From a virus: a DNA stretch of 26,312 bases. The stretch is taken from IMG/VR virus record IMGVR_UViG_3300032050_000703, positions 1-26,312 of that record; one strand, written 5' to 3'. Below, piece after piece: positions 11,283 through 26,312 of the stretch. The notes under the pieces are model-generated. The model worked only from the letters and a program-made list of their open reading frames with translations. It was not told where the DNA came from and ran no database searches. Position numbers and translations under genes: made by a program. Numbering within the stretch: position 1 is the stretch's first letter; every line of letters starts with the position of its first letter.

Positions 11283-11466
11283 GAAGGGGCAGGGGTTCTT
11301 CGTCCCCTGCCTCGACTTTGAAAAGATGCGCGAGTATGGGCTGACCAAGGCGGTCAGCGAACGCATACTCGACGCTCAAGCCATACCCGGCATCAAGGAC
11401 GGGGCTGCTGGCGTATGGTTCTTCAGGAAGCCTGTCGTTCCTCGACCTTCCGCACCGCCGCATTGA
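11242..11466 (+). CDS. 74-aa conserved phage protein, last gene of the rightward module
   Basis: From GTG 11242 the product begins MKYSRIRLPWKRLEKGQGFF, a pattern I have seen in small phage proteins of unknown role (KYSRI.LPW..L..GQGFFVP, then KTR..G...AV..RI, then GVWF). It is probably a small beta-alpha protein. The start is inside the end of the primase-helicase gene, so the two are coupled. The last 14 codons (PVVPRPSAPPH end) lie over the 3' end of the giant virion gene on the other strand, a 44-base convergent overlap, and read like an extension beyond the conserved part. No catalytic residues are recognised. Confidence 0.75.
   Translation: MKYSRIRLPWKRLEKGQGFFVPCLDFEKMREYGLTKAVSERILDAQAIPGIKDGAAGVWFFRKPVVPRPSAPPH
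11288..11311. other. strong 8-bp hairpin, possible barrier for leftward transcripts
   Basis: GGCAGGGG at 11288-11295 pairs perfectly with CCCCTGCC at 11304-11311 around an 8-base loop. It sits six bases after the primase-helicase stop and within the 74-aa gene. Neither strand has a following T-run, so it is not a standard intrinsic terminator. For leftward transcripts it would form about 110 bases past the giant gene's stop and could protect 3' ends or slow polymerase. Confidence 0.4.
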
Positions 11467-14400
11467 ACTTGTTGGCCAAGTCCTGTCGCACCTTATCGAG
11501 CTGATCAAGGCGAGCGCGTTTCTCTTCTGCGTTCAAGTCCTTGCGGTTGCGCACGACATCCTCCTGCGTGCGCAGGCGTCCCAGCAGCATCTCAAAGTTG
11601 CGCGCCATGGGTGCCAGCATGATCTCGGTGCGGTGGTTGGCCAAGTACTCTTTGGCGTCTTGCGGCGTACCGTTCTTCTGGATGTCCTTCAGAGACGCGG
11701 CGCGTTGCGTGGCTTCCTTGGCAAACGCGTACATGGTGTCCGCATCTGCCCCACCGTACTTCTTCTGGAACACCGTACCAAGTATGGGAGTCTCTGACAG
11801 TCGGCGCGCAGGCGCTTCACCCTTGGTCTCCTCACGCATGAAGCTAGAAGCCACGGACATGAGCGCCAGCGGTGCGGTACCGAAGTAGCCACGGGCAATG
11901 TGCTCGATTTGCACCGGAGACAGCGGCAACACCTTTGCCAGCATCTTGGCAGCTTCCGTAGTGGAGGCGTTGAAGCGCTCCTCCGGGCTGCGGTTCTGCA
12001 TGGAGATCGACTCGATGTTTTGACCAGAGAAGAAGTTCTTGTTCGTCCACACCTCGAACAGCGGCTTGACCGCTTGCGGCACAACCGAGCTATACCCCGG
12101 AATAGACGAGAGAAAAATGTCTCGCAGCGCTTTGAGCTGCTGCTTGCTGTTTGTCTCCGCCTTCATAGCATCGGCAAGCGCCACGGCGGCGGTAAAGAAC
12201 CAGCCAGATTCGTACGGCAAGGGAATCTTCACAGGCTCGCTGACGCCCGGCAGATGTACAAAGAAGTTCGTGTACTTGTCCCGGGGCTTGGCGTTCTTGA
12301 ACGTCTCGTCGTCCTCCATAGCCATGGCGTACACCAGACCGACGCCAAACAACATGACCGCGTTGTTCCAGAACTTGCGCTGGATACGCTGACGCTCCTC
12401 GAAAGGCATCTTCCCACGCATCGCTTTGGCCAAGACGTTCAGGCCCTGAATCTGCGCGTTCATGAACGGGTACAAGCGGTTGGCGTACTGCACCGTAGGC
12501 GACAGACCGCGCTTGTAGAAGTTCATGGACTCCATGGTCATCAGGTCGGCTTCTACTTCCGACAGACCATTCTTGCGTGCGTTCTCGTACACCAAACCTC
12601 GTGTGGCAGCATCGGCACGAATCGCCGCACGGTCCAACAAACCCATCAAACGGTCAATAGCAGAACCGTCTTTGCCGCTGGCAAGCTGCGTAGCAAACGC
12701 CGACATGTCATCGGGATCGCCAGTGAAGATGCCGCTTTGGATCAGACCCTTCTCAATCAGGTTCTTAGTCGCCGCGCTACGCCCGGCGCTGCTGCGCAGG
12801 AATTCAGCACCCGCCATAACCACGGCACGGAACGGCCCGTAATTCAAACCGCCAGTGAACGACGCTGCCATCGGGTCACGAATAAGCTGGCGGAAGATGT
12901 ACGGAGGCATCCGGGTCACGCCCTTGCGCAGCCAGTCGCCGGCAATACCGCCAATTTTCAAGAACGCAGGCAATGTCAGGTGTGCGCCTTCAAGGCTCTT
13001 GACCACCATCTCGGCAGGAATGCCTTCCATCGTGGTGTTTTTGGTGCTGATGCGCAGCCAACGCTGACCGTCGTCCTTCGGGTCTTTCGGATCAGGCTCT
13101 TGCTTAAACCGAATGATGTCTGTCCCTGCCGGCCCGTGCCCACGCTTGATCGGCATAGCGTTCTTGCCGTCTGCACCCTTACCTTCACCAAACTCCTGCA
13201 TGGCGTAGGCAATTTCTTTGGTGGCGTTGTTGGTCAGCGCCGCCCGGGTGATCAGCATGGTGTTGCGGATCAGCGATTCGTTGAGCGGCAAAATCTTGCT
13301 CTCACCGCCTTTGAGTTCAGCCAGATACGGCTGGGTGCGAATGTCACCAATCGTCAGCGTCTTCTCACCACCGAACACCAGCTCCGCCGTGCCATCCGGA
13401 CGCACACGGTAGTAAGGAACGTAGTCACCATCCTTGAGCCACTGCTTTGCTTCGGCCTTGGAGATCACGCCAGCGTCGGCAAGAAGCTTGATCTGTCCTT
13501 CGTTGTAGGCGTTGTACTGGCGGCGCACTTCTTCCAGAGAACTCTTGAGTTCAGGGTCTGCGTTAACCGCTGCCATTGCCGCTGCTAGGTCAGACTCTTT
13601 CAGGCCCAGCTCGCCGATGTCCAGCTTGCTCAGCCCTTTGTTGGCCGCCCGCTGAGCGATCATGTAGGTGGACGCCAACGCAAACTTAGCTTGCGTGTTC
13701 TTGCCGGGCACGGCCTTGACGGCGTTAAAAATATCTTGTGCGGGGTTCTGGTTGCTAGACCTCAGCCCACGCAAACCTTTGTCATCGGTGTAGAACTCCA
13801 GCGGACCGTTGGAGAGCGCCGTGTACACCAGCGGCATGTACTGATCGGCTTTGCGCACGTTATACATGGCCTGCGTGAACAGGTCGTCTTTGCCCAGCTC
13901 CTTGGCACCGCGCTTGAGAGCTTCTTGCAAACCCGCACGCATATCCACAGCGTTCATCTCAGCCTTCAGCGCGAGATTGGATTTGTTTCTCTCGATGAAG
14001 CCCTCGGGCTGCGCAATGATTCGGTCGGCCAAGTCAGTCAGCGCATTCTCGGACTCGTACTTGGGTTTAGCAACGCGGTACAGCGGGGCGGCCTTGCCAG
14101 TCTCGGCAACACGATTGACGCCACCTTGAACCACATGACGGCGAGCATTGGCAACGAGCTGCTGAACTTGCTTGTCCGACACGGACTGCCCGAACACACG
14201 GCGAATGAAACTGCGCAGCGCGTCGTAGACCGCACGCAAAACACCCGGACCCTTGGCGTTGGGGTCGCGCTCAGCCATATCGGCCAGCACTTCTTCCGTT
14301 GCCGTGTTCTGGTTCAGCGAGGGAGTCTCGCGCATCTTGGCGTCGGCCTTGGCTTTAACGTCGCGGTTGCCGTTGTAGATGCGGTTCATCTCGGCGGCAT

Positions 14401-17400
14401 AGCCAGCGCCAAGCAAGCTGCGAAGGCCAAAGTGTCCGGTCACCTCGTGTGCGATGGTCGTGAAAACATCGGCAGGGTCGAACAGGTTGGAGGCAACGAG
14501 ATACACCTTGTTGCTGTTGGGATCAAACACGCCGGGGATGCTGCCTTCGACTTTGTCAGCCTTAGCCTGCGCACGGATGTTGTCGGGCAGTTGGCGCTCG
14601 TTCTCAACGATCTCAATCTCCGGCACGTTGGCAAAGCTGCCAACAACGGAGTCAACCAGCCCACGGATGGTCTGCGGCTTGAGCGCCGTGCCGGTACGCT
14701 TAGAGGTTCGATACAGCGACTTCAATGAATCGACGTTGAGCTTTTCTTCCTTGCCAAGCAACAAGCGCGTCGAGGTCCCTGTCTTTGCCGTCTTCTCTAC
14801 GCCTTCAAAAGTCTTGGTGACTGTCTGCACCTGCTTCGGGAACATTTCAGCCGTCTTCTCCGTGGCGTCGGGAAGAACCAGTAGCATTCCACCGTTTAAC
14901 TCCGAGGAGTTGGGCATCAGTTTGTTGACGAACATTTCGTTCGTCGTGTTGATACAACCGTAGCTGATGCGGTTGTCTGTGCCGGTGGGGGACAGGAGCC
15001 GACCCAGTCTGTTTTCTTTCGGGTCGCCCACATACACCGCGTGGATGGCAATAACACCTTCGCCGGGCCTGAATGTTTCTGCCAGATCAAAACGATAGCC
15101 GCCGGTGTACGAAGAATCACGCGTGTATGCCAACGTGAATTTCCCGGCGGGGGTAATTTTTGCACCGCCTGTCAGCGAGTTGCCGCGCTCTACGTCGCCG
15201 ACATCCTTGCCCGTAAGCGTAGCGCCCTGAACAATCAGACTGCCATCAGCCTTAAAGTAATGGGATGTGCCGTTGGGCTTGTCCACAATACCAAAGCCTT
15301 TGCCGGAAGCCTTAGCGGCAGGAGCCATGTTCTCGTAGACCATCTGCGCCAACGGGCTCATCTGTTCCCGAGCTTCCGCAGGGACTTCCGCCCTGATATC
15401 CACTTGCTGCGTGATGGTCTGCTTGTACGTTTGCGGAAGATCAAACGACAGATGTGTGGCAGAGAACTGCGGGTTGAAGATCATCGCCGTGGCGAGGACA
15501 CCCGAAGCAATCTTGTTGACGATGGCCCTGATGCCTTTGGCAACGGCCCTACCGCCGTTGTTGACCATGTCAACGATGTCAGCACTAAGCTGAGCAAGGA
15601 ACTTCTTGCTGTTCTTCTTGGCTCCGTACGCCTCTTCCAGCTTGGCCGTCTCTTCAGGCGCTAGCTTGGCGACCTCTGCCTTAACAACCGTAGCGGCTTC
15701 AGGGCCGACCACCGTCTCAATAGTGGGCTCGGTGTTGACTTCCTCTTCGAGAGGAACCTCCTCTTCAGCCGTAGCTTCCTCAGCCACAGTTTCTTCCTCA
15801 GCCGTAGCTTCTTCAGCCGTAGCTTCTTCAGCCGTAGCTTCCTCAGTCTTTGCCTTAGCGTCTGCTTGCGCAAGGATGCTCTTCTCAAGGTCAGTCAGCT
15901 CTTCGCCTCTGGCTAGCTTAGCTCTGGCTTCGATGACCGTCCGCTCTGCTACTGCACGTGCTTGGATTGCGGTTGCTTCTGCGGCAGTCGCCTCGGCAGC
16001 GCTGCCTGTGGCCGTACCAAAGACCGTCTTCTTTGCCTTGCGTGCTTTAGCAACTTGCGTACGAGTGAGCGCTTCGCCAGTAGTGGTGGGCGCATCAGCG
16101 CGGCTGGCAGCTTCCTTAGCTTCAGCTGCCTCAGCAGCTTTCTTTTTAGCCGCAGCTTCTTTGGCTTTGTTCTCTCGCGCCTCTTTATTAAGCAGCGCCC
16201 GGAAGTTATCTCGCTCTTCTTGGATGCTTGCAGCGTACTCGCCGTTGGGACCGATCTTGGCTTCCAAGAATTCCATTTTGTTGTACAAAATAGAAAGCTG
16301 CTTAATCTGCGCAGCCATGCCCTTCCACGTTAGCGGCAGCGCATTAAGCTTCTCTGCCATTGCAGCGTAGTCATCCGTCGCGGCTTCAATTTTTGGGGTC
16401 AGCGCTTCACGCTCATCGGCAGACTTTGTGTTTCTATACTGCTCTTCAAGTTTGATAACACGCGCCTTGAGCGCATTCAGTCGTTGCAGCCGAGCTTGCT
16501 TGGACTTCTCTTGCGCTTTGCGAACCGCCTTTTCCAAGTTGGTAATTGCGCTGCGATACCCACCAAGCGTTTTTGCAGGACTAGTGTCCAGATTGGCAAG
16601 TTCAACGGCGTTAAAGCTGGGCGGCCCCATCTCTCGCGAATCCCGTTGCGCCATGTCCAATGCCGGCACTACCTGACTGTTTGCAACTTCAGAAAACTTG
16701 GCTTCCAACCGACGCTGCTCTTCTTTGCGAGCATCGGTACGCGCTTGTTCCGCCTTCGCCTTCTCCACAGCCGCTTGCTCGCGGCGTTTGTTGCCGGCCT
16801 CAACGATTGCGTCTAGACGTTGCTTGGCTTCTGCCTTTTGAACCGGTGCCAGTTCTGCGATAGCTGCAGCTAAATCTTTCTGGGCGTTCTCAATGACCGA
16901 GTCAGGGAACATCAGCACCGTCGCTGCCTCACCGCGAGAGGCAAGCATTTCGGCCAACCGGTTCTGTGCAGCTAGCGCTCGTAGCATGGTCTCGGCACGC
17001 TCAGCGCCGGACATCATCTTAGTCATGCTGGCCTGCGCAGCTTCAAGCTGCTGCAGAACCTGCGACAACTCTTTGCGCAGCTTTTCGGTTGCCGCCACGG
17101 CAGGTGCAACTTTGTTCTTTGCACGCATGCCGGGCATCATCTTGCTGCCCAGAATTTCTTCCAAGCGCTGCTTGTGCTCGGTGAGGGCCTGAATCTGACC
17201 CAACAACTCCATACGCCCCACCACCGCCTTGGTGATTGCGGCATTGAGACTGCTCTGCTTCTTTTGCGCAGCCAAGATCGCGTCGCGGTTTTTGGTCAGT
17301 TCTTTAAGTGTGTTGCGCTCAAGGCGCAGTTTGGTAAGTCTTTCAATTTGCGCGGCAAGTTCTGCAACACGCGCTTGCAGTCCGGGAAGTGCGTCCAGCT

Positions 17401-20365
17401 TGTCAAGCGCCCCTTTAGCTTGAATGACCGCCCCACGCATGGCGTTGGCTTCGCTGCTGCGCAAGAACGCTGCAAACTCTTCGGGGGTACTAAACGCGGT
17501 ACCGAGCTTGGCTTCTTCCTCTTCAAACAGAGGACGCTGTGCGGCATCGATGGGGCCAGTACCGGCAGCCTCCTCGGCAGCGCGAAGCAAAGGCTCCAAC
17601 TCACCTCGAAGCGACAGTGGGGTAGCGGGTTCAGCACTGCCAAGCGTTAGCGTACGACCTGTGTCGGCTTTGCCGCGCTTGGTACGAGGGACTTCTCCGG
17701 TTGCAGTAGCAACACGCTCACCTTCAGGCTGGGCAACAACGTCACGATAAGCGTAGCCAGCAGCTTGCGCAGGGGTCTTACCCTCATCGATGTACCGGTT
17801 GTACGCTTTGACACGCTTGCGTTGCAGATCAGTCAGCGTCTTGGGGTCTGCGGACGCGTTGTTCTGAATGTCACGCAGGTCCGCCATAGTAGGCGCTGCT
17901 ACCTCAGCCCGGGTTCCCTGCACGGGGAAGCCTTGATACCTAGCCGGGCGTTCGCCCTTGACCTCAGGTCCAACAATACCTTCTTCTCCACGCTCAATAC
18001 GCTCAAGCTGACGGTCTAGTAGTGAGAGAACCTCAGGGCTAGCGGTGGGGGCGATGTCTTCTGCGCGGCGCAGGAAGTCATACGCGTCTTGATCCAAGTC
18101 TGCTTCCGCCAAAACACGCGCAAGGCGCTCTTGGATGTTCTTGGTATCTGATGCCCGTGCGGGTTCGCCGCGTTGATTGAACAGACGGAACTCGCCCTTG
18201 ACGCGAGTTGCGGGAGCCCGTTCGGATTCAGCCTCCGGGGCTTTCTCTTCTTCAGCCGTATAGATGGGCTGACCTTCAGCGCCAATTGGCAAACCCTGCA
18301 GGTCTTGCGCAGTACGACCCATGACGGACGATCCTGCTCGCGTAGTAGCCTGTGCAGGGGTTTCTATCGGCAGTCGGTTAATCAGGTTCGCAACACCAAC
18401 GGCAGGCCGCCCAGCAATCCGTTGCAGGGCTTCAACTTCGGGCGTAACCTTTTTCAGCCGAGCAGCTTCAGCAGCGGCAGCGGCAGCGGCCTCGGCACGA
18501 CTCTGGGCCTCAGCTTGTTCTCGCTGCGCTTGCTCAGCTCGGGCCGCAACAACACCGGGCTGCGTCTGCATAGCAGCCAAAAGATTTTCACCGGGCTTCT
18601 GACCCAGCAGCATCTGCTGCATGCGCGCCGGCGCAGTCTCACTTTCACGAGCAGCATCGGCTTCAAGAATGGCTCGCTGTCGCTGAGCTTCTTCTAAAGC
18701 AGCTTGTTCTTCCGCCTCGACCGTACCCAAGCGCTGCTGGGCGGCACTTCTAGCAGCGGTGCCCAACCTCGTGTTCTGTTTTTCTAGGGCCTTAAGCTGC
18801 AATGCCAGTGCGCCTAAGAAAGCGTTGGCTTGTTTGCGCGTCATGCCCGGCAACGCGGTGCCCGTCCGGACCATCTGATACGCCATGGCCGGGTCCGTCA
18901 TTACATACGCGACGTAGTCCTGAATTTCAGGCGTAGCGATAGACTGCGCGTCGGCCAACGCTTTAATTCTTTGAGCAAACGCAACAACAGGCGATGTGGG
19001 AGTTGCTGTAGCAAACGGATCACCCTCGACAGGCTTAGCTTCTGCCGGAGTAATACCCGGAGCAGCCGCCGCTCGCTCTGCAAAAAATTCTTCCGGCGAT
19101 AACCCTGCAAGCCGCGCTTCTTCAGCGACAACCCGCGCATTCGCATCCAGCTGGGCTAGCAGCGGCTTGACTCGGTTACTCTCCTTGGCAGCTTCCGTCA
19201 GCTTGGGCGCAAGTTCCTTGAGCTGCGCGTTGATGACGACGTTGGCTTGCTTCTGCTCTTCCGTCAGTGTCTCCCCTTTGGGGGCCCTGACGATCTGCGC
19301 TTGAAGATCGCGCTTTTGTTTCTCCAGCGCAGCGCTCTCCGCAACAACTTGACGCATGTACTCCGGCGTTTGTTTGCGCGCTTCCTCTTCGGCGTCCGCT
19401 GCTGCTTTGGCTTGGGCTGCCGCAGCCTTAGCTGCTGCCTTGTCTTGGGCGTCAGCTTCTTCTGCCTGTTTGCGCGCACCGCTACGTTCAAGATACCGAC
19501 CAGCAGGAGCCAGTGTGCCGCCCAACACCGCACCGCCAATGAAGCTCTCAATGTATTCTTTGCGGGCCTCAGGGTCGGTAATACTCAGACCCGCTTGCAG
19601 GCGTTCAAGCGACTGCTGCACAACCTCAGTAAAACCTTCACGGCCCATGGCCATTCCAGTCTTGGCGGTGTAGTCGGCAATCGTTTTGCTTAGTGTCTGG
19701 CTAGCGATGGCCTTGGCTTGTTCAGTTGTTAGCTTGGAGCCAACAGAGCTGAATAGCTTGCCGACACCGGGAAGCAACGCCATAGCGGCGGTGTCAACCA
19801 AAGCTTGAGGAACGGCTGCAGCGACGGCTTTGCCAAGGCTGGCTTCTTCCAAAGACTTGCCCGTGCCCATTTGAGCGGCAAGGTTGGAGCCCGTAAACTG
19901 CCCAGCAGACACAGCGCCCGCGCCCAACAAACCTAAGCCTGCAGCAACTGGAGCGGATACCGGAGCAGTTAGAGCCGCAAGACCTGCCGTTGCAGGCAAG
20001 GCCATGTATGGAAGAGAGCCGCCAAGGGTTTCTCTAAACTTCAGAAGGGGGTCTTCAGTCCAACCCTTTTCAGTAGGCGTGAAACGCGCCGCAGCTTTGG
20101 CTTGTGCGGCTTCGTATTCTTTCTGAGCCTCAGCTTCGCTCTTGATGCCCGTCTTGCCCTTGAGCAGCTCAAACTCTCCGCCAAGCCGGGTAAAACCAGC
20201 AGAAGCAGCCGCCTTGAGACCTGTAGTGTCCTGCCTAGGCTTTTCTTCCTGCAGCTTGAAAGCTTCGGGGTAGAAGCGAGCTGCCACCCTCAGCGCCTGT
20301 TCGGGGGTTTCCCCCTCTTTCATGGGGAACAACGAACCGTTCGGCAGCCTGATATTTTGAGCCAT
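11423..20365 (-). CDS. giant polyvalent virion protein with L,D-transpeptidase-like, zincin and LPD38-like domains
   Basis: From ATG 20365 the product is 2980 aa. Residues 114-158 and 179-205 are Gly/Ala-rich hydrophobic segments; about 300-1545 is Ala/Glu/Lys/Arg-rich coiled coil, with an acidic TAEEA repeat near 1508-1544. A hydrophobic stretch is followed by a YkuD-like domain (about 1690-1835) with TPAGKF, His1775 and SYGCIN containing Cys1804. A zincin has HEVTGH at 1973-1978 and a possible Glu ligand in ATEEVLAD. About 2480-2760 resembles LPD38, a large polyvalent protein-associated domain. Such proteins are ejected with phage DNA; this one probably modifies peptidoglycan during entry, like T7 gp16 in role but with a different enzyme. 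An in-frame TTG at 20407 is possible, but the intergenic hairpin there favours 20365. Confidence 0.88.
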   Translation of the reverse strand: MAQNIRLPNGSLFPMKEGETPEQALRVAARFYPEAFKLQEEKPRQDTTGLKAAASAGFTRLGGEFELLKGKTGIKSEAEAQKEYEAAQAKAAARFTPTEKGWTEDPLLKFRETLGGSLPYMALPATAGLAALTAPVSAPVAAGLGLLGAGAVSAGQFTGSNLAAQMGTGKSLEEASLGKAVAAAVPQALVDTAAMALLPGVGKLFSSVGSKLTTEQAKAIASQTLSKTIADYTAKTGMAMGREGFTEVVQQSLERLQAGLSITDPEARKEYIESFIGGAVLGGTLAPAGRYLERSGARKQAEEADAQDKAAAKAAAAQAKAAADAEEEARKQTPEYMRQVVAESAALEKQKRDLQAQIVRAPKGETLTEEQKQANVVINAQLKELAPKLTEAAKESNRVKPLLAQLDANARVVAEEARLAGLSPEEFFAERAAAAPGITPAEAKPVEGDPFATATPTSPVVAFAQRIKALADAQSIATPEIQDYVAYVMTDPAMAYQMVRTGTALPGMTRKQANAFLGALALQLKALEKQNTRLGTAARSAAQQRLGTVEAEEQAALEEAQRQRAILEADAARESETAPARMQQMLLGQKPGENLLAAMQTQPGVVAARAEQAQREQAEAQSRAEAAAAAAAEAARLKKVTPEVEALQRIAGRPAVGVANLINRLPIETPAQATTRAGSSVMGRTAQDLQGLPIGAEGQPIYTAEEEKAPEAESERAPATRVKGEFRLFNQRGEPARASDTKNIQERLARVLAEADLDQDAYDFLRRAEDIAPTASPEVLSLLDRQLERIERGEEGIVGPEVKGERPARYQGFPVQGTRAEVAAPTMADLRDIQNNASADPKTLTDLQRKRVKAYNRYIDEGKTPAQAAGYAYRDVVAQPEGERVATATGEVPRTKRGKADTGRTLTLGSAEPATPLSLRGELEPLLRAAEEAAGTGPIDAAQRPLFEEEEAKLGTAFSTPEEFAAFLRSSEANAMRGAVIQAKGALDKLDALPGLQARVAELAAQIERLTKLRLERNTLKELTKNRDAILAAQKKQSSLNAAITKAVVGRMELLGQIQALTEHKQRLEEILGSKMMPGMRAKNKVAPAVAATEKLRKELSQVLQQLEAAQASMTKMMSGAERAETMLRALAAQNRLAEMLASRGEAATVLMFPDSVIENAQKDLAAAIAELAPVQKAEAKQRLDAIVEAGNKRREQAAVEKAKAEQARTDARKEEQRRLEAKFSEVANSQVVPALDMAQRDSREMGPPSFNAVELANLDTSPAKTLGGYRSAITNLEKAVRKAQEKSKQARLQRLNALKARVIKLEEQYRNTKSADEREALTPKIEAATDDYAAMAEKLNALPLTWKGMAAQIKQLSILYNKMEFLEAKIGPNGEYAASIQEERDNFRALLNKEARENKAKEAAAKKKAAEAAEAKEAASRADAPTTTGEALTRTQVAKARKAKKTVFGTATGSAAEATAAEATAIQARAVAERTVIEARAKLARGEELTDLEKSILAQADAKAKTEEATAEEATAEEATAEEETVAEEATAEEEVPLEEEVNTEPTIETVVGPEAATVVKAEVAKLAPEETAKLEEAYGAKKNSKKFLAQLSADIVDMVNNGGRAVAKGIRAIVNKIASGVLATAMIFNPQFSATHLSFDLPQTYKQTITQQVDIRAEVPAEAREQMSPLAQMVYENMAPAAKASGKGFGIVDKPNGTSHYFKADGSLIVQGATLTGKDVGDVERGNSLTGGAKITPAGKFTLAYTRDSSYTGGYRFDLAETFRPGEGVIAIHAVYVGDPKENRLGRLLSPTGTDNRISYGCINTTNEMFVNKLMPNSSELNGGMLLVLPDATEKTAEMFPKQVQTVTKTFEGVEKTAKTGTSTRLLLGKEEKLNVDSLKSLYRTSKRTGTALKPQTIRGLVDSVVGSFANVPEIEIVENERQLPDNIRAQAKADKVEGSIPGVFDPNSNKVYLVASNLFDPADVFTTIAHEVTGHFGLRSLLGAGYAAEMNRIYNGNRDVKAKADAKMRETPSLNQNTATEEVLADMAERDPNAKGPGVLRAVYDALRSFIRRVFGQSVSDKQVQQLVANARRHVVQGGVNRVAETGKAAPLYRVAKPKYESENALTDLADRIIAQPEGFIERNKSNLALKAEMNAVDMRAGLQEALKRGAKELGKDDLFTQAMYNVRKADQYMPLVYTALSNGPLEFYTDDKGLRGLRSSNQNPAQDIFNAVKAVPGKNTQAKFALASTYMIAQRAANKGLSKLDIGELGLKESDLAAAMAAVNADPELKSSLEEVRRQYNAYNEGQIKLLADAGVISKAEAKQWLKDGDYVPYYRVRPDGTAELVFGGEKTLTIGDIRTQPYLAELKGGESKILPLNESLIRNTMLITRAALTNNATKEIAYAMQEFGEGKGADGKNAMPIKRGHGPAGTDIIRFKQEPDPKDPKDDGQRWLRISTKNTTMEGIPAEMVVKSLEGAHLTLPAFLKIGGIAGDWLRKGVTRMPPYIFRQLIRDPMAASFTGGLNYGPFRAVVMAGAEFLRSSAGRSAATKNLIEKGLIQSGIFTGDPDDMSAFATQLASGKDGSAIDRLMGLLDRAAIRADAATRGLVYENARKNGLSEVEADLMTMESMNFYKRGLSPTVQYANRLYPFMNAQIQGLNVLAKAMRGKMPFEERQRIQRKFWNNAVMLFGVGLVYAMAMEDDETFKNAKPRDKYTNFFVHLPGVSEPVKIPLPYESGWFFTAAVALADAMKAETNSKQQLKALRDIFLSSIPGYSSVVPQAVKPLFEVWTNKNFFSGQNIESISMQNRSPEERFNASTTEAAKMLAKVLPLSPVQIEHIARGYFGTAPLALMSVASSFMREETKGEAPARRLSETPILGTVFQKKYGGADADTMYAFAKEATQRAASLKDIQKNGTPQDAKEYLANHRTEIMLAPMARNFEMLLGRLRTQEDVVRNRKDLNAEEKRARLDQLDKVRQDLANKFNAAVRKVEERQAS
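15765..15842 (-). repeat. 15-bp tandem repeat encoding an acidic TAEEA tract
   Basis: The unit TCAGCCGTAGCTT plus two bases starts at 15765, 15780 (diverged), 15798, 15813 and 15828; the last three are exact 15-base periods. On the coding strand it gives repeated Thr-Ala-Glu-Glu-Ala within the giant virion protein. The tract is a flexible acidic linker just before the hydrophobic segment and the L,D-transpeptidase domain. Repeat number may vary between relatives through slippage. Confidence 0.75.
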
Positions 20366-20385
20366 ACGCCACACCAAATTTTTAA

Positions 20386-20405
20386 GCCGGGGCGCTACTC
20401 CCGGC
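20386..20405. other. intergenic GC hairpin before the giant virion gene
   Basis: GCCGGG at 20386-20391 pairs with CCCGGC at 20400-20405 around an 8-base loop, in the gap between the 582-aa gene and ATG 20365. On the leftward transcript it is followed by TTAAAAATTT rather than a U-run, so it is a weak terminator candidate at best. It may be an mRNA processing or stability element that sets the level of the giant protein. Confidence 0.4.
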
Positions 20406-20419
20406 AAAGCGCATTGAAA

Positions 20420-22175: not shown

Positions 22176-23099
22176 TCAAATTTTGGTCATAGCCAACTCG
22201 GCAAGGCCGGCGGCTTTCTTCTTGCTTTTGGGTTTAGCGGTTACCTCGCCGCCTTCGGCAAACATGCCCAGCCTACTTGCTCCGTACGCAGCAGTGCCAA
22301 GGCCAGCGAGCTGCGATCCGATAGAGGGGTTAGCGCCGTAGAGCGAGTTGGTCATGCCCATCGGGGTACCGCGCAGGATGTTCGACAGAAATTCAACTTG
22401 CTGGTATGGGTACTGCCGCTCTGCCAAAAAGTTCTGGTAGTTTGTGTCCAGCGCTTTTTGAATTTGCCCTTGTTGCTGCGTACCAAACTGCGCCTGCTGC
22501 TGACCCACAGCCATCTGCTGGTTGATACCCTGACGGAACTGATCCGCAGCGCGGTCATACGCTGCCTGAGAGCCACGGGCCTGAATGTCCTGCATCTGAG
22601 AGCGGAGGCCCCGCTCACGCTCCGCACGCTGAATACCTTCACGATAGCCGCCAAACGCACCTGCTTGGGTAGCCTGCGCTTGTTGTTGCTGACCTAGCAT
22701 CTGGGAGGTGCGAGCAGCCTCCATTTTCTCCCGGTCAATGACGTTCTGCTGGTACGGCGACATGTACTGGCCGATGTCCTGCGCAAATCCTTGGGGGCCA
22801 GCATCCATGTTGTACGCGGCACCGTACGCTTGCTGTTGCAAGGGGGTGAACTGCGCCGTGCGCTCTCCAGCATAACGCTGATACGGCTGAAACCCGGAAA
22901 TCTTGCCGCTGGTGGGGTCTGTTCGGAAAACCGTACTCTCTGCGGCACCAAGCACGTTCTTTGCCGTACCTTTTGCCCAGTCGGGAAGATCAGCAATCTG
23001 CGTTGAAGTCTGAGAACCGCCGCCGCTGTCATAGACGCGCCGGGTGCTGGTGAGGCGACCGCCTTCGCCATAGCCGCAATGTTTGCTCGGAATAATCAT
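22176..23099 (-). CDS. Gln/Ala-rich virion protein (internal or tail protein candidate)
   Basis: A 307-aa protein. Its ATG overlaps the stop of the GNAT-like gene (ATGA), with GAGG about eight bases upstream. Residues 80-235 are Gln/Ala-rich, helix-forming and almost free of Cys, with YMSPYQQNVIDREKME at 112-127 and GAFGGYREG at 147-155. This YxSPYQQ...D pattern is one I have met in internal or connector-region proteins of podovirus-like phages. The C-terminus has a hydrophobic patch (LAGLGTAAYGASRLG), FAEGG at 280-284 and a Lys-rich tail. It is probably structural. It could be an ejected protein or a head-tail component; nothing decides between them. Confidence 0.75.
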   Translation of the reverse strand: MIIPSKHCGYGEGGRLTSTRRVYDSGGGSQTSTQIADLPDWAKGTAKNVLGAAESTVFRTDPTSGKISGFQPYQRYAGERTAQFTPLQQQAYGAAYNMDAGPQGFAQDIGQYMSPYQQNVIDREKMEAARTSQMLGQQQQAQATQAGAFGGYREGIQRAERERGLRSQMQDIQARGSQAAYDRAADQFRQGINQQMAVGQQQAQFGTQQQGQIQKALDTNYQNFLAERQYPYQQVEFLSNILRGTPMGMTNSLYGANPSIGSQLAGLGTAAYGASRLGMFAEGGEVTAKPKSKKKAAGLAELAMTKI

Positions 23100-23524
23100 T
23101 TGGTCACCTCAAAAAACTTTTGGTAGGTCACGCTTTGCACTTCGTAGCCATGGCTCTGCGCAGACTTTTTCCAGCCGGGACGGCCCACAAACTCAATACC
23201 AGCAGCCCCGGCTTGCGTTGCCAGATTGTCCAGCAACGCGTACATCTCGTCTTCCACAAACTCCATGTGGTGCGGCTCCCCTGCACAGTACTGAACAGTC
23301 AGCATCTTGCACTGAGGATACGCCTTGACCTCACAGATCACATGCCCGTACACCGAGTCATCATTGTGCACCGCAAGCAAGAGCATCTGGCCGTTGATCA
23401 GGAACCGGACGATGTCCTCAGGAGTAGCGCGCCCGCGAGACCATTTTGCCGACTCTTCAAGATATGGCCTGAGCGCCGACACGACGCCCAGTAATTGGCT
23501 CATCGGGACGACGCTGATTTTCAT
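23096..23524 (-). CDS. GNAT-like acetyltransferase-fold protein in the virion block
   Basis: A 142-aa protein overlapping both neighbours by four bases (ATGA), so it is translated with them. The layout is alpha helix (3-25), strand pair (MLLLAVHNDD, then YGHVICEVKAYPQCKMLTVQ at residues 60-79), a helix (DEMYALLDNLATQAG), then strand and GRPGWKKSAQSHGYE. A helix, beta sheet, helix and a final GWxxxxxxxGYE segment matches the GNAT fold. The acetyl-CoA loop (Q/RxxGxG/A) is not visible, so it may not be an active acetyltransferase. Phages often carry such GNAT-like proteins among virion genes. A function in virion assembly or protein modification is uncertain. Confidence 0.65.
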   Translation of the reverse strand: MKISVVPMSQLLGVVSALRPYLEESAKWSRGRATPEDIVRFLINGQMLLLAVHNDDSVYGHVICEVKAYPQCKMLTVQYCAGEPHHMEFVEDEMYALLDNLATQAGAAGIEFVGRPGWKKSAQSHGYEVQSVTYQKFFEVTK

Positions 23525-25425: not shown

Positions 25426-26312
25426 TTAGCGGCTGATCTCTTCCCAATCCAGAGAGCCAAGCACCTGATCCCCGTTGGATGCCGCTGTACAGGCCAGCGT
25501 GATCTCATAAGCAGTCGGGGTGAAAGGGTTGCGTTCTAACTGGGTGGTAAACAGCGCGGCTTTCAAAATGTCAACGCTGGTAGCCCCTTGGTTGGAGCCT
25601 TGGAAATAGCCCGTCGCCAAGATGCGCCCCCCAGTAGAGGAAAACGCCGTGCCGGTGATGTTGTATTCAACCGAAGAGTTTGTCCCCGCGCTTACCCAAG
25701 TGCCGCCGGTCGTGGTGCCGTTTACAACTACAGACCATTGATAGTTTGCGTTGTTGGTAACACCTAAGATTGATATGGCCGTCAGGATGGCGATACCGTC
25801 CAGCCGCGTTGATTTTAGGCGGAACGAAACAACTGGGTAAACCGTCCCGGCAGTGGTCAGCGTTTTCGGGGTTGTGATGGGAGTTCCGGCGGATAGCTGC
25901 GCCCCACGCAGTTCATACCCGCCCTCAGAGATTACCGTCGAGCAGACCTGTTTGAGCGTGCTGGTCCCGGTGGTGGCCGCCGTGTTGGTCATCTCATACC
26001 GAAGGGGCAGGGAGGCGGTCGTGATGTATGTGGTGGTGACGAGGTTGGCGTGGTCGAAGTTATGCACCGGGACAAAAGCCCCGTTGATGATGAAGCCCGT
26101 GCGGACCGTGCCAAGGCCCAGCCACTCAACGTCCATGTACAGAATCTGCGCCTTGGAGGAATCCAGCGTCAGCCCTGACGGGCCGGTGCCATCCATCGGG
26201 TCTTGGTTCCAGTCAGCCTGAGCCACCCGGGTGTTGACCACGGACCCCGTCACACTGCTGCGCTCGACCATATAGTTGGTCGTCCCGTCACGCTCGAAGT
26301 AGATGCCGTTGG
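25426..26312 (-). CDS. virion structural protein, tail or surface type, 5' end beyond the right edge
   Basis: The frame is open to the right edge: 294 codons and the TAA are visible, and the first internal Met is at 26271, with NGIYFERDGTTNY before it. The visible N-terminal part has VERSSVTGSVVNTRVAQADW, then MDGTGPSGLTLD, VEWLGLGTVRTGF and PVHNFDHAN. This combination (RSS.TG...VAQADWN.D..DG.G.SG..LD, then EWLG.G.V..GF, H.F.HAN) recurs in phage virion proteins that carry surface or decoration-like beta domains. The remainder is Thr/Ser/Gly-rich beta sequence with no enzyme motif. It is probably a tail, baseplate or head-surface component. The true start lies outside the window, so length and domain count are unknown. 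Confidence 0.78.
   Translation of the reverse strand, partial: NGIYFERDGTTNYMVERSSVTGSVVNTRVAQADWNQDPMDGTGPSGLTLDSSKAQILYMDVEWLGLGTVRTGFIINGAFVPVHNFDHANLVTTTYITTASLPLRYEMTNTAATTGTSTLKQVCSTVISEGGYELRGAQLSAGTPITTPKTLTTAGTVYPVVSFRLKSTRLDGIAILTAISILGVTNNANYQWSVVVNGTTTGGTWVSAGTNSSVEYNITGTAFSSTGGRILATGYFQGSNQGATSVDILKAALFTTQLERNPFTPTAYEITLACTAASNGDQVLGSLDWEEISR

Follow-up and report, generated by a model that had tools for sequence, protein, structure and literature searches.

A YkuD-fold domain in a giant phage polyvalent protein forms an exchangeable cassette and has secreted bacterial relatives beside proteins with a common C-terminal tail

We describe a YkuD-fold, L,D-transpeptidase-like (LDT) domain located within a giant polyvalent protein of a phage where, together with the hydrophobic segment that precedes it, it forms an accessory and exchangeable cassette. 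The DNA analysed, referred to here as the window, comprises 26,312 bases of virus record IMGVR_UViG_3300032050_000703.

An LDT-fold domain within a giant phage protein

The window encodes a protein of 2,994 aa that combines unrelated enzyme domains in one chain (an LDT fold, plus a zincin recognized by motif) and that has an LPD38 domain; on both grounds we class it as polyvalent. Matches to phrog_18222/9854 cover its C-terminal 500 aa. The LPD38 domain found in the same region has been reported from phage-type polyvalent proteins only, and the HEXXXH variant of the zincin has likewise been described for polyvalent proteins (PMC5512222). The features concerned, together with late-type genes of the same run, are as follows.

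11423–20407, minus strand: giant polyvalent protein; ORF of 2,994 aa with a TTG start (alternative ATG 14 codons later)
11780–12310, minus strand: LPD38 domain, aa 2700–2876 (Pfam PF18857, E 1.6e-28, 100.6 bits, cut-off 27)
14228–14725, minus strand: zincin-like metallopeptidase module, HEVTGH (HEXXXH) at aa 1987–1992 plus TEEVLAD, assigned by motif only
14858–15301, minus strand: YkuD-fold (L,D-transpeptidase-like) domain, aa 1703–1850, from motifs, alignment, AlphaFold2 and Foldseek/VIA
14954–14956, minus strand: predicted nucleophile Cys1818, invariant in 60/60 aligned sequences and the sole Cys of the whole protein
15041–15043, minus strand: predicted catalytic His1789, invariant in 60/60 aligned sequences
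22176–23099, minus strand: late-type gene, upstream, weakly similar to a DNA ejection protein family (phrog_4287, E 0.001)
25426–26310, minus strand: virion structural protein, partial at the window end (phrog_1645, E 9e-104; 67 % to HMO-2011 gp65)

The gene for the giant is the last of a late-type, same-strand run with structural and weak ejection-protein matches, and it is plausible that its product is a virion protein packaged in the particle. A 142-aa ORF within the structural run (23096–23524, minus strand) matches phrog_7642, a family of unknown function. HMO-2011 was considered as a parent lineage: one virion structural protein is common to both (67 %), and in the stretch read none of the annotated genes is a giant of such architecture.

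The sequence-only reading had placed an L,D-transpeptidase domain at 14866–15300 on the strength of TPAGKF, a His and SYGCIN. All three were indeed found in ORF 11423–20407 (minus strand), with TPAGKF at aa 1752–1757; the two catalytic residues are the same ones, although numbering from the TTG start turns His1775 and Cys1804 into His1789 and Cys1818, and the domain is delimited here at 14858–15301. An alignment of 60 phage and bacterial sequences contains 23 invariant columns, including TPAG, His, RxxRL, DNRxSYGCxN and LP. In every one of the 60 the gap between His and Cys is exactly 28 residues, and the residue after the His is R, P, A, S or T. As none of 20,000 composition shuffles gave rise to the motif combination, its occurrence is beyond chance. 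Furthermore, viral relatives at 29–66 % identity retain the His, Cys, TPAG, DNR and SxGCxN, and an invariant Arg/Asp/Asn insert between the His and Cys is specific to this SYGC family.

Modelling and fold comparison bore out the proposed YkuD-like domain, and the predicted LDT/YkuD fold can be assigned securely on account of both. AlphaFold2, run on the 60-sequence alignment, returned a pLDDT of 93.9 and a pTM of 0.88 for the domain. The best solved matches by Foldseek were Pgp2, Csd6, Ldtfm and mycobacterial LDTs, and VIA-align gave Z scores of 14.5 for Csd6, 14.1 for the M. smegmatis LDT and 13.5 for B. subtilis YkuD, all of these being LDT-fold enzymes. A second model, extended to include upstream sequence, again showed the LDT fold, with low confidence in the hydrophobic region. 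Profile evidence was borderline: the isolated domain scored 22.3 bits against Pfam PF03734, just under the gathering cut-off of 23.4, and 28 of the 60 family members match this profile (best E 4e-6). Neither the whole-protein Pfam scan, which returned LPD38 alone, nor a PF03734 search of the window found it. The hhalign comparison with canonical LDTs was limited to the N-terminal hairpin (probability 92.6), and NCBIfam and PADLOC scans gave nothing useful. Beta-propeller repeats, the sole matches in PDB sequence searches with the domain or its profile, are spurious in view of the fold result.

The SYGC subfamily is nevertheless not canonical YkuD, since 28 residues lie between its His and Cys as against the published catalytic motif H(S/G/D)X14-19C (PMC4599014); the gap was 12–18 in nine of the ten canonical sequences used, and the value of 45 in the tenth arose from picking an earlier His. 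The subfamily shares with the YkuD/LDT superfamily (PF03734; LdtMt1/2, Ldtfm, B. subtilis YkuD) the fold, the TPxG strand, a conserved His followed by an SxGC nucleophile, and secreted bacterial relatives, but differs in having SYGCIN where the canonical motif is SHGC[IV]R, a conserved RxxRL...DNR insert, and a Pfam score at or below the cut-off. The LD-carboxypeptidases Csd6 and Pgp2 are its best structural matches, and Csd6 also has a single catalytic Cys; however, identity is 14–17 %, triad spacing differs, and the window domain has neither the NTF2 domain nor the cell-shape role. LdtGo, a 1,3-cross-linking enzyme, is similarly a divergent YkuD-like protein of alpha/betaproteobacteria that mostly escapes Pfam, but it has 18 residues between H245 and C264 (PMC10864386), compared with 28 in the window family. 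The LdtGo structure was absent from the Foldseek/VIA fold lists shown, which carries no weight either way.

Among phages, standalone LDTs (Xanthomonas phage XacN1; Stenotrophomonas DLP_5/Summit) belong to the same fold family and are weakly similar in sequence, but are small separate genes rather than part of a giant protein. The wall enzymes named for polyvalent proteins are lysozyme, SpoIID-like and DD-peptidase domains, and the words 'YkuD' and 'transpeptidase' do not occur in the main text of that survey (PMC5512222), which agrees with the earlier suggestion that it is unusual to find a transpeptidase fold in proteins of this kind.

Presence and absence of the cassette among phage giants

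The LDT domain lies in a segment of ~1 kb that is bounded by a tandem repeat on one side and the zincin on the other.

14750–15761, minus strand: accessory cassette of ~1 kb (hydrophobic segment plus LDT), between the 15-bp repeat and the zincin; missing at the corresponding site of contig L124
15464–15517, minus strand: hydrophobic signal-anchor-like segment, aa 1631–1648, ~55 aa before the LDT; conserved
15765–15846, minus strand: 15-bp tandem repeat coding EEATA, the upstream boundary of the cassette (TRF); also in L124

Contig L124, found by a search with the window's zincin, has 94 % DNA identity to the window over 6.8 kb downstream, and in it the EEATA repeat joins the zincin directly, with ~1 kb missing. 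By blastn, the repeat aligns to rc 10551 of the window, and the 94 % match picks up again at rc 11564. Because L124 is cut off within the repeat, absence of the cassette applies to the corresponding site only and an LDT may lie elsewhere in its gene. The repeat is longer in L124 and is a possible recombination site for cassette exchange. An HMM search found no LDT in two complete giants that have the same zincin (L127 and L128).

Gp25 of PTXU04 resembles the window giant in its LPD38 C-terminus, zincin module and position as the last gene of the late run, but differs in having no LDT cassette, and it aligns to window aa 1951–2982, only downstream of the cassette. PTXU04_00025 is needed for plaques to form: its knockdown strongly reduced plaquing, and its expression was among those found to be toxic or interfering (PMC11879866). 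Only four PTXU04 virion proteins, all other than gp25, have been identified from gel bands (PMC6563267), which counts against packaging of the giant. As knockdown of this LDT-less giant reduces plaquing, the backbone is important even where it has no LDT, which makes the LDT accessory.

A scan of viral contigs with the LDT domain returned 19 loci, which are at 29–66 % identity except for one identical copy. Seventeen of the 19 are phage giants, and the other two (L018 and L019) resemble bacterial standalone genes. L001 is almost the same protein as that of the window, and L012 is identical to L011 in the domain. The cassette is carried by at least 16 phage giants. Across these homologs the LDT is constant and the next module varies (HEVTGH, HEGVHA, HEVGHG, HELVHG, HELFHL). 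In the stretch read of L016 no zincin follows the LDT, and a JAB/RadC-like stretch (HNHPSG) is found there instead; the L009 giant reaches 4424 aa. The same LDT, as an SLGC variant behind an internal, textbook signal-peptide-like stretch, is present in a 2318-aa protein (L120:1683–8639) of pSTEC648_2 (CP061838.1), a 60.5-kb E. coli 'plasmid' that carries ParB, holin, lysozyme and a GH104 enzyme and resembles a phage-plasmid. No close copy of this giant was found among 5,426 E. coli genomes.

Each of the 16 distinct phage homologs has the hydrophobic segment, located ~55–75 aa ahead of the LDT. In L015 and the pSTEC648_2 homolog it looks like a cleavable signal peptide with an AxA site; in the window's clade, no clear AxA/signal-peptidase site follows it and its hydrophobicity is moderate (KD ~1.1–1.8). 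In a tree, a 100/97 branch sets the phage LDT domains apart (with a long-branch warning for L015, L016 and pSTEC648_2), and for this reason the phage copies appear to be an old phage lineage. Recent host-to-phage transfer was rejected on the same topology.

Bacterial relatives and a common C-terminal tail

The phage LDT is akin to a secreted proteobacterial family. From the 374 bacterial relatives that a genome scan reported, the best 80 were taken (L020–L099). These homologs are standalone proteins, and most of them carry, at the position that corresponds to the phage segment, a signal peptide or a lipobox; a helix just before the domain is also common to phage proteins and bacterial homologs. 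Two neighbouring genes checked with Pfam encode two-partner-secretion exoproteins, and by phmmer scan 31 of 82 loci contain exoprotein genes of this kind, in most cases immediately upstream of the LDT. The C-termini of the exoproteins are near-identical, reading PRKQDRN, PPKQDRN or similar. An ORF ending in [KR]xDRN-COOH lies within 1 kb in 54 of the 82 loci, as against 3 of 5,151 more distant ORFs (Fisher p 1.4e-24), figures for a tail that was both found and counted on these same, phylogenetically non-independent loci. Moreover, the tail-bearing partners are of unrelated types, namely exoproteins, short Ser/Thr-rich secreted proteins and Pro-rich lipoproteins (L063, L028, L025); examples of such loci are L094:2713–5685, L072, L063 and L028. 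In a small sample drawn independently from alphaproteobacterial genomes (L133–L136), the ends were KQDRN, KQARN or KQDRY. Neither the tail nor the SYGC-LDT enzyme has a name in NCBIfam models, and a literature search found no description of either.

That tail-bearing neighbours adjoin the LDT in 54 of 82 loci suggests that, in bacteria, the SYGC-LDT family is a dedicated protein-to-peptidoglycan anchoring enzyme, and the simplest reading is that it would link [KR]xDRN tails to peptidoglycan. LDTs are known to link Braun's lipoprotein to peptidoglycan, Lpp being attached via a lysine; as position −5 of the tail can be Arg, the chemistry here may differ from that attachment. In genomes of Pseudorhodoferax (L023, G001) and Limnohabitans (L061, G008) the SYGC-LDT is present and a PF03734 match is absent, so the SYGC-LDT may be the sole LDT-like enzyme there.

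Extending this to the phages, we tentatively propose, at rather less than even confidence, that the SYGC subfamily is a Gram-negative anchoring enzyme that would recognize exported proteins (two-partner-secretion exoproteins, lipoproteins and Ser-rich proteins) by the [KR]xDRN tail and link them to peptidoglycan, and that LPD38-giant phages have taken it, together with its signal segment, as an injected cassette that can be swapped and that would rewire the host's wall-attached proteins.

Possible roles of the cassette in infection

For the phage module itself we favour, with moderate confidence, a role as an exchangeable cargo cassette that modifies periplasmic stem peptides or protein–wall links. 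The giant would be packaged and then ejected with the DNA, and the hydrophobic segment would place or hold the LDT domain on the periplasmic side. There, Cys1818 and His1789 would react with a stem peptide of peptidoglycan, or with the link between a protein and a stem peptide, to give an acyl-enzyme, and would then transfer or hydrolyse it. The neighbouring zincin may process the giant into its functional parts. The result would be a host wall, or wall-anchored proteins, altered around or after entry. As the [KR]xDRN tail is absent from every ORF of at least 40 aa in the phage loci, the phage substrate is probably host peptidoglycan or host wall-anchored proteins. The term 'transpeptidase' is putative with regard to chemistry, because the closest folds include LD-carboxypeptidases and the motif spacing is non-canonical; carboxypeptidase, exchange and attachment activities are inseparable by sequence.

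An LD-carboxypeptidase or protein-detaching hydrolase (Csd6/Pgp2/DpaA-like), which would trim stem peptides or cut outer-membrane protein tethers and form no bond, is possible, if on the unlikely side. Csd6 and Pgp2 head the fold comparisons and the Arg/Asp/Asn insert is invariant and family-specific; however, the Z differences among LDT-fold matches are small, and the bacterial neighbours point to attachment. It is doubtful that the role is one of covalent attachment to peptidoglycan, be it of the phage protein itself or of a host exoprotein (for tethering or competitor lock-out). This would mirror the apparent role of the bacterial family, whose members adjoin exported proteins, including lipoproteins, with the common C-terminus and have catalytic invariants in common with the phage enzymes, but the phage loci contain no such tail.

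Equally improbable is that the LDT is the phage's peptidoglycan-penetrating enzyme at DNA entry, where it would open, trim or reseal the wall. Enzymes of the LDT type act on peptide bonds, which they form or trim, and do not open glycan strands by themselves. Its fold is that of peptidoglycan-peptide-active enzymes, the giant has a late-gene context, and lysozyme-domain polyvalent proteins are thought to act in this way (PMC5512222), but the cassette is missing at its site in the 94 %-identical L124 and altogether from homologous giants. A general need for the LDT in DNA entry is therefore unlikely, which weakens the entry role put forward in the sequence-only reading; in the favoured reading, the role of the LDT would be accessory and host-adapted, outside the basic entry machine. 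Finally, a non-catalytic, peptidoglycan-binding relic would fit the non-canonical motif and the SLGC of the pSTEC648_2 homolog, but is very improbable given that the His, Cys, TPAG, DNR and SxGCxN persist across viral relatives and that Cys1818 is the only Cys of the protein.

The favoured reading, that of a cargo cassette acting on stem peptides or protein–wall links, extends the known cargo of phage polyvalent proteins by a wall enzyme that makes or trims peptide bonds, and natural pairs with and without the cassette make the contribution of the LDT testable. It also brings to light an LDT-like family that is without a name in Pfam, NCBIfam or the literature found, and whose genomic partners have a C-terminal tail in common. 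This association is the most surprising thread of the work and merits separate study: the [KR]xDRN tail is a candidate Gram-negative counterpart of sortase signals, and the partner tails hint at a protein-to-wall anchoring chemistry that phages may have borrowed.
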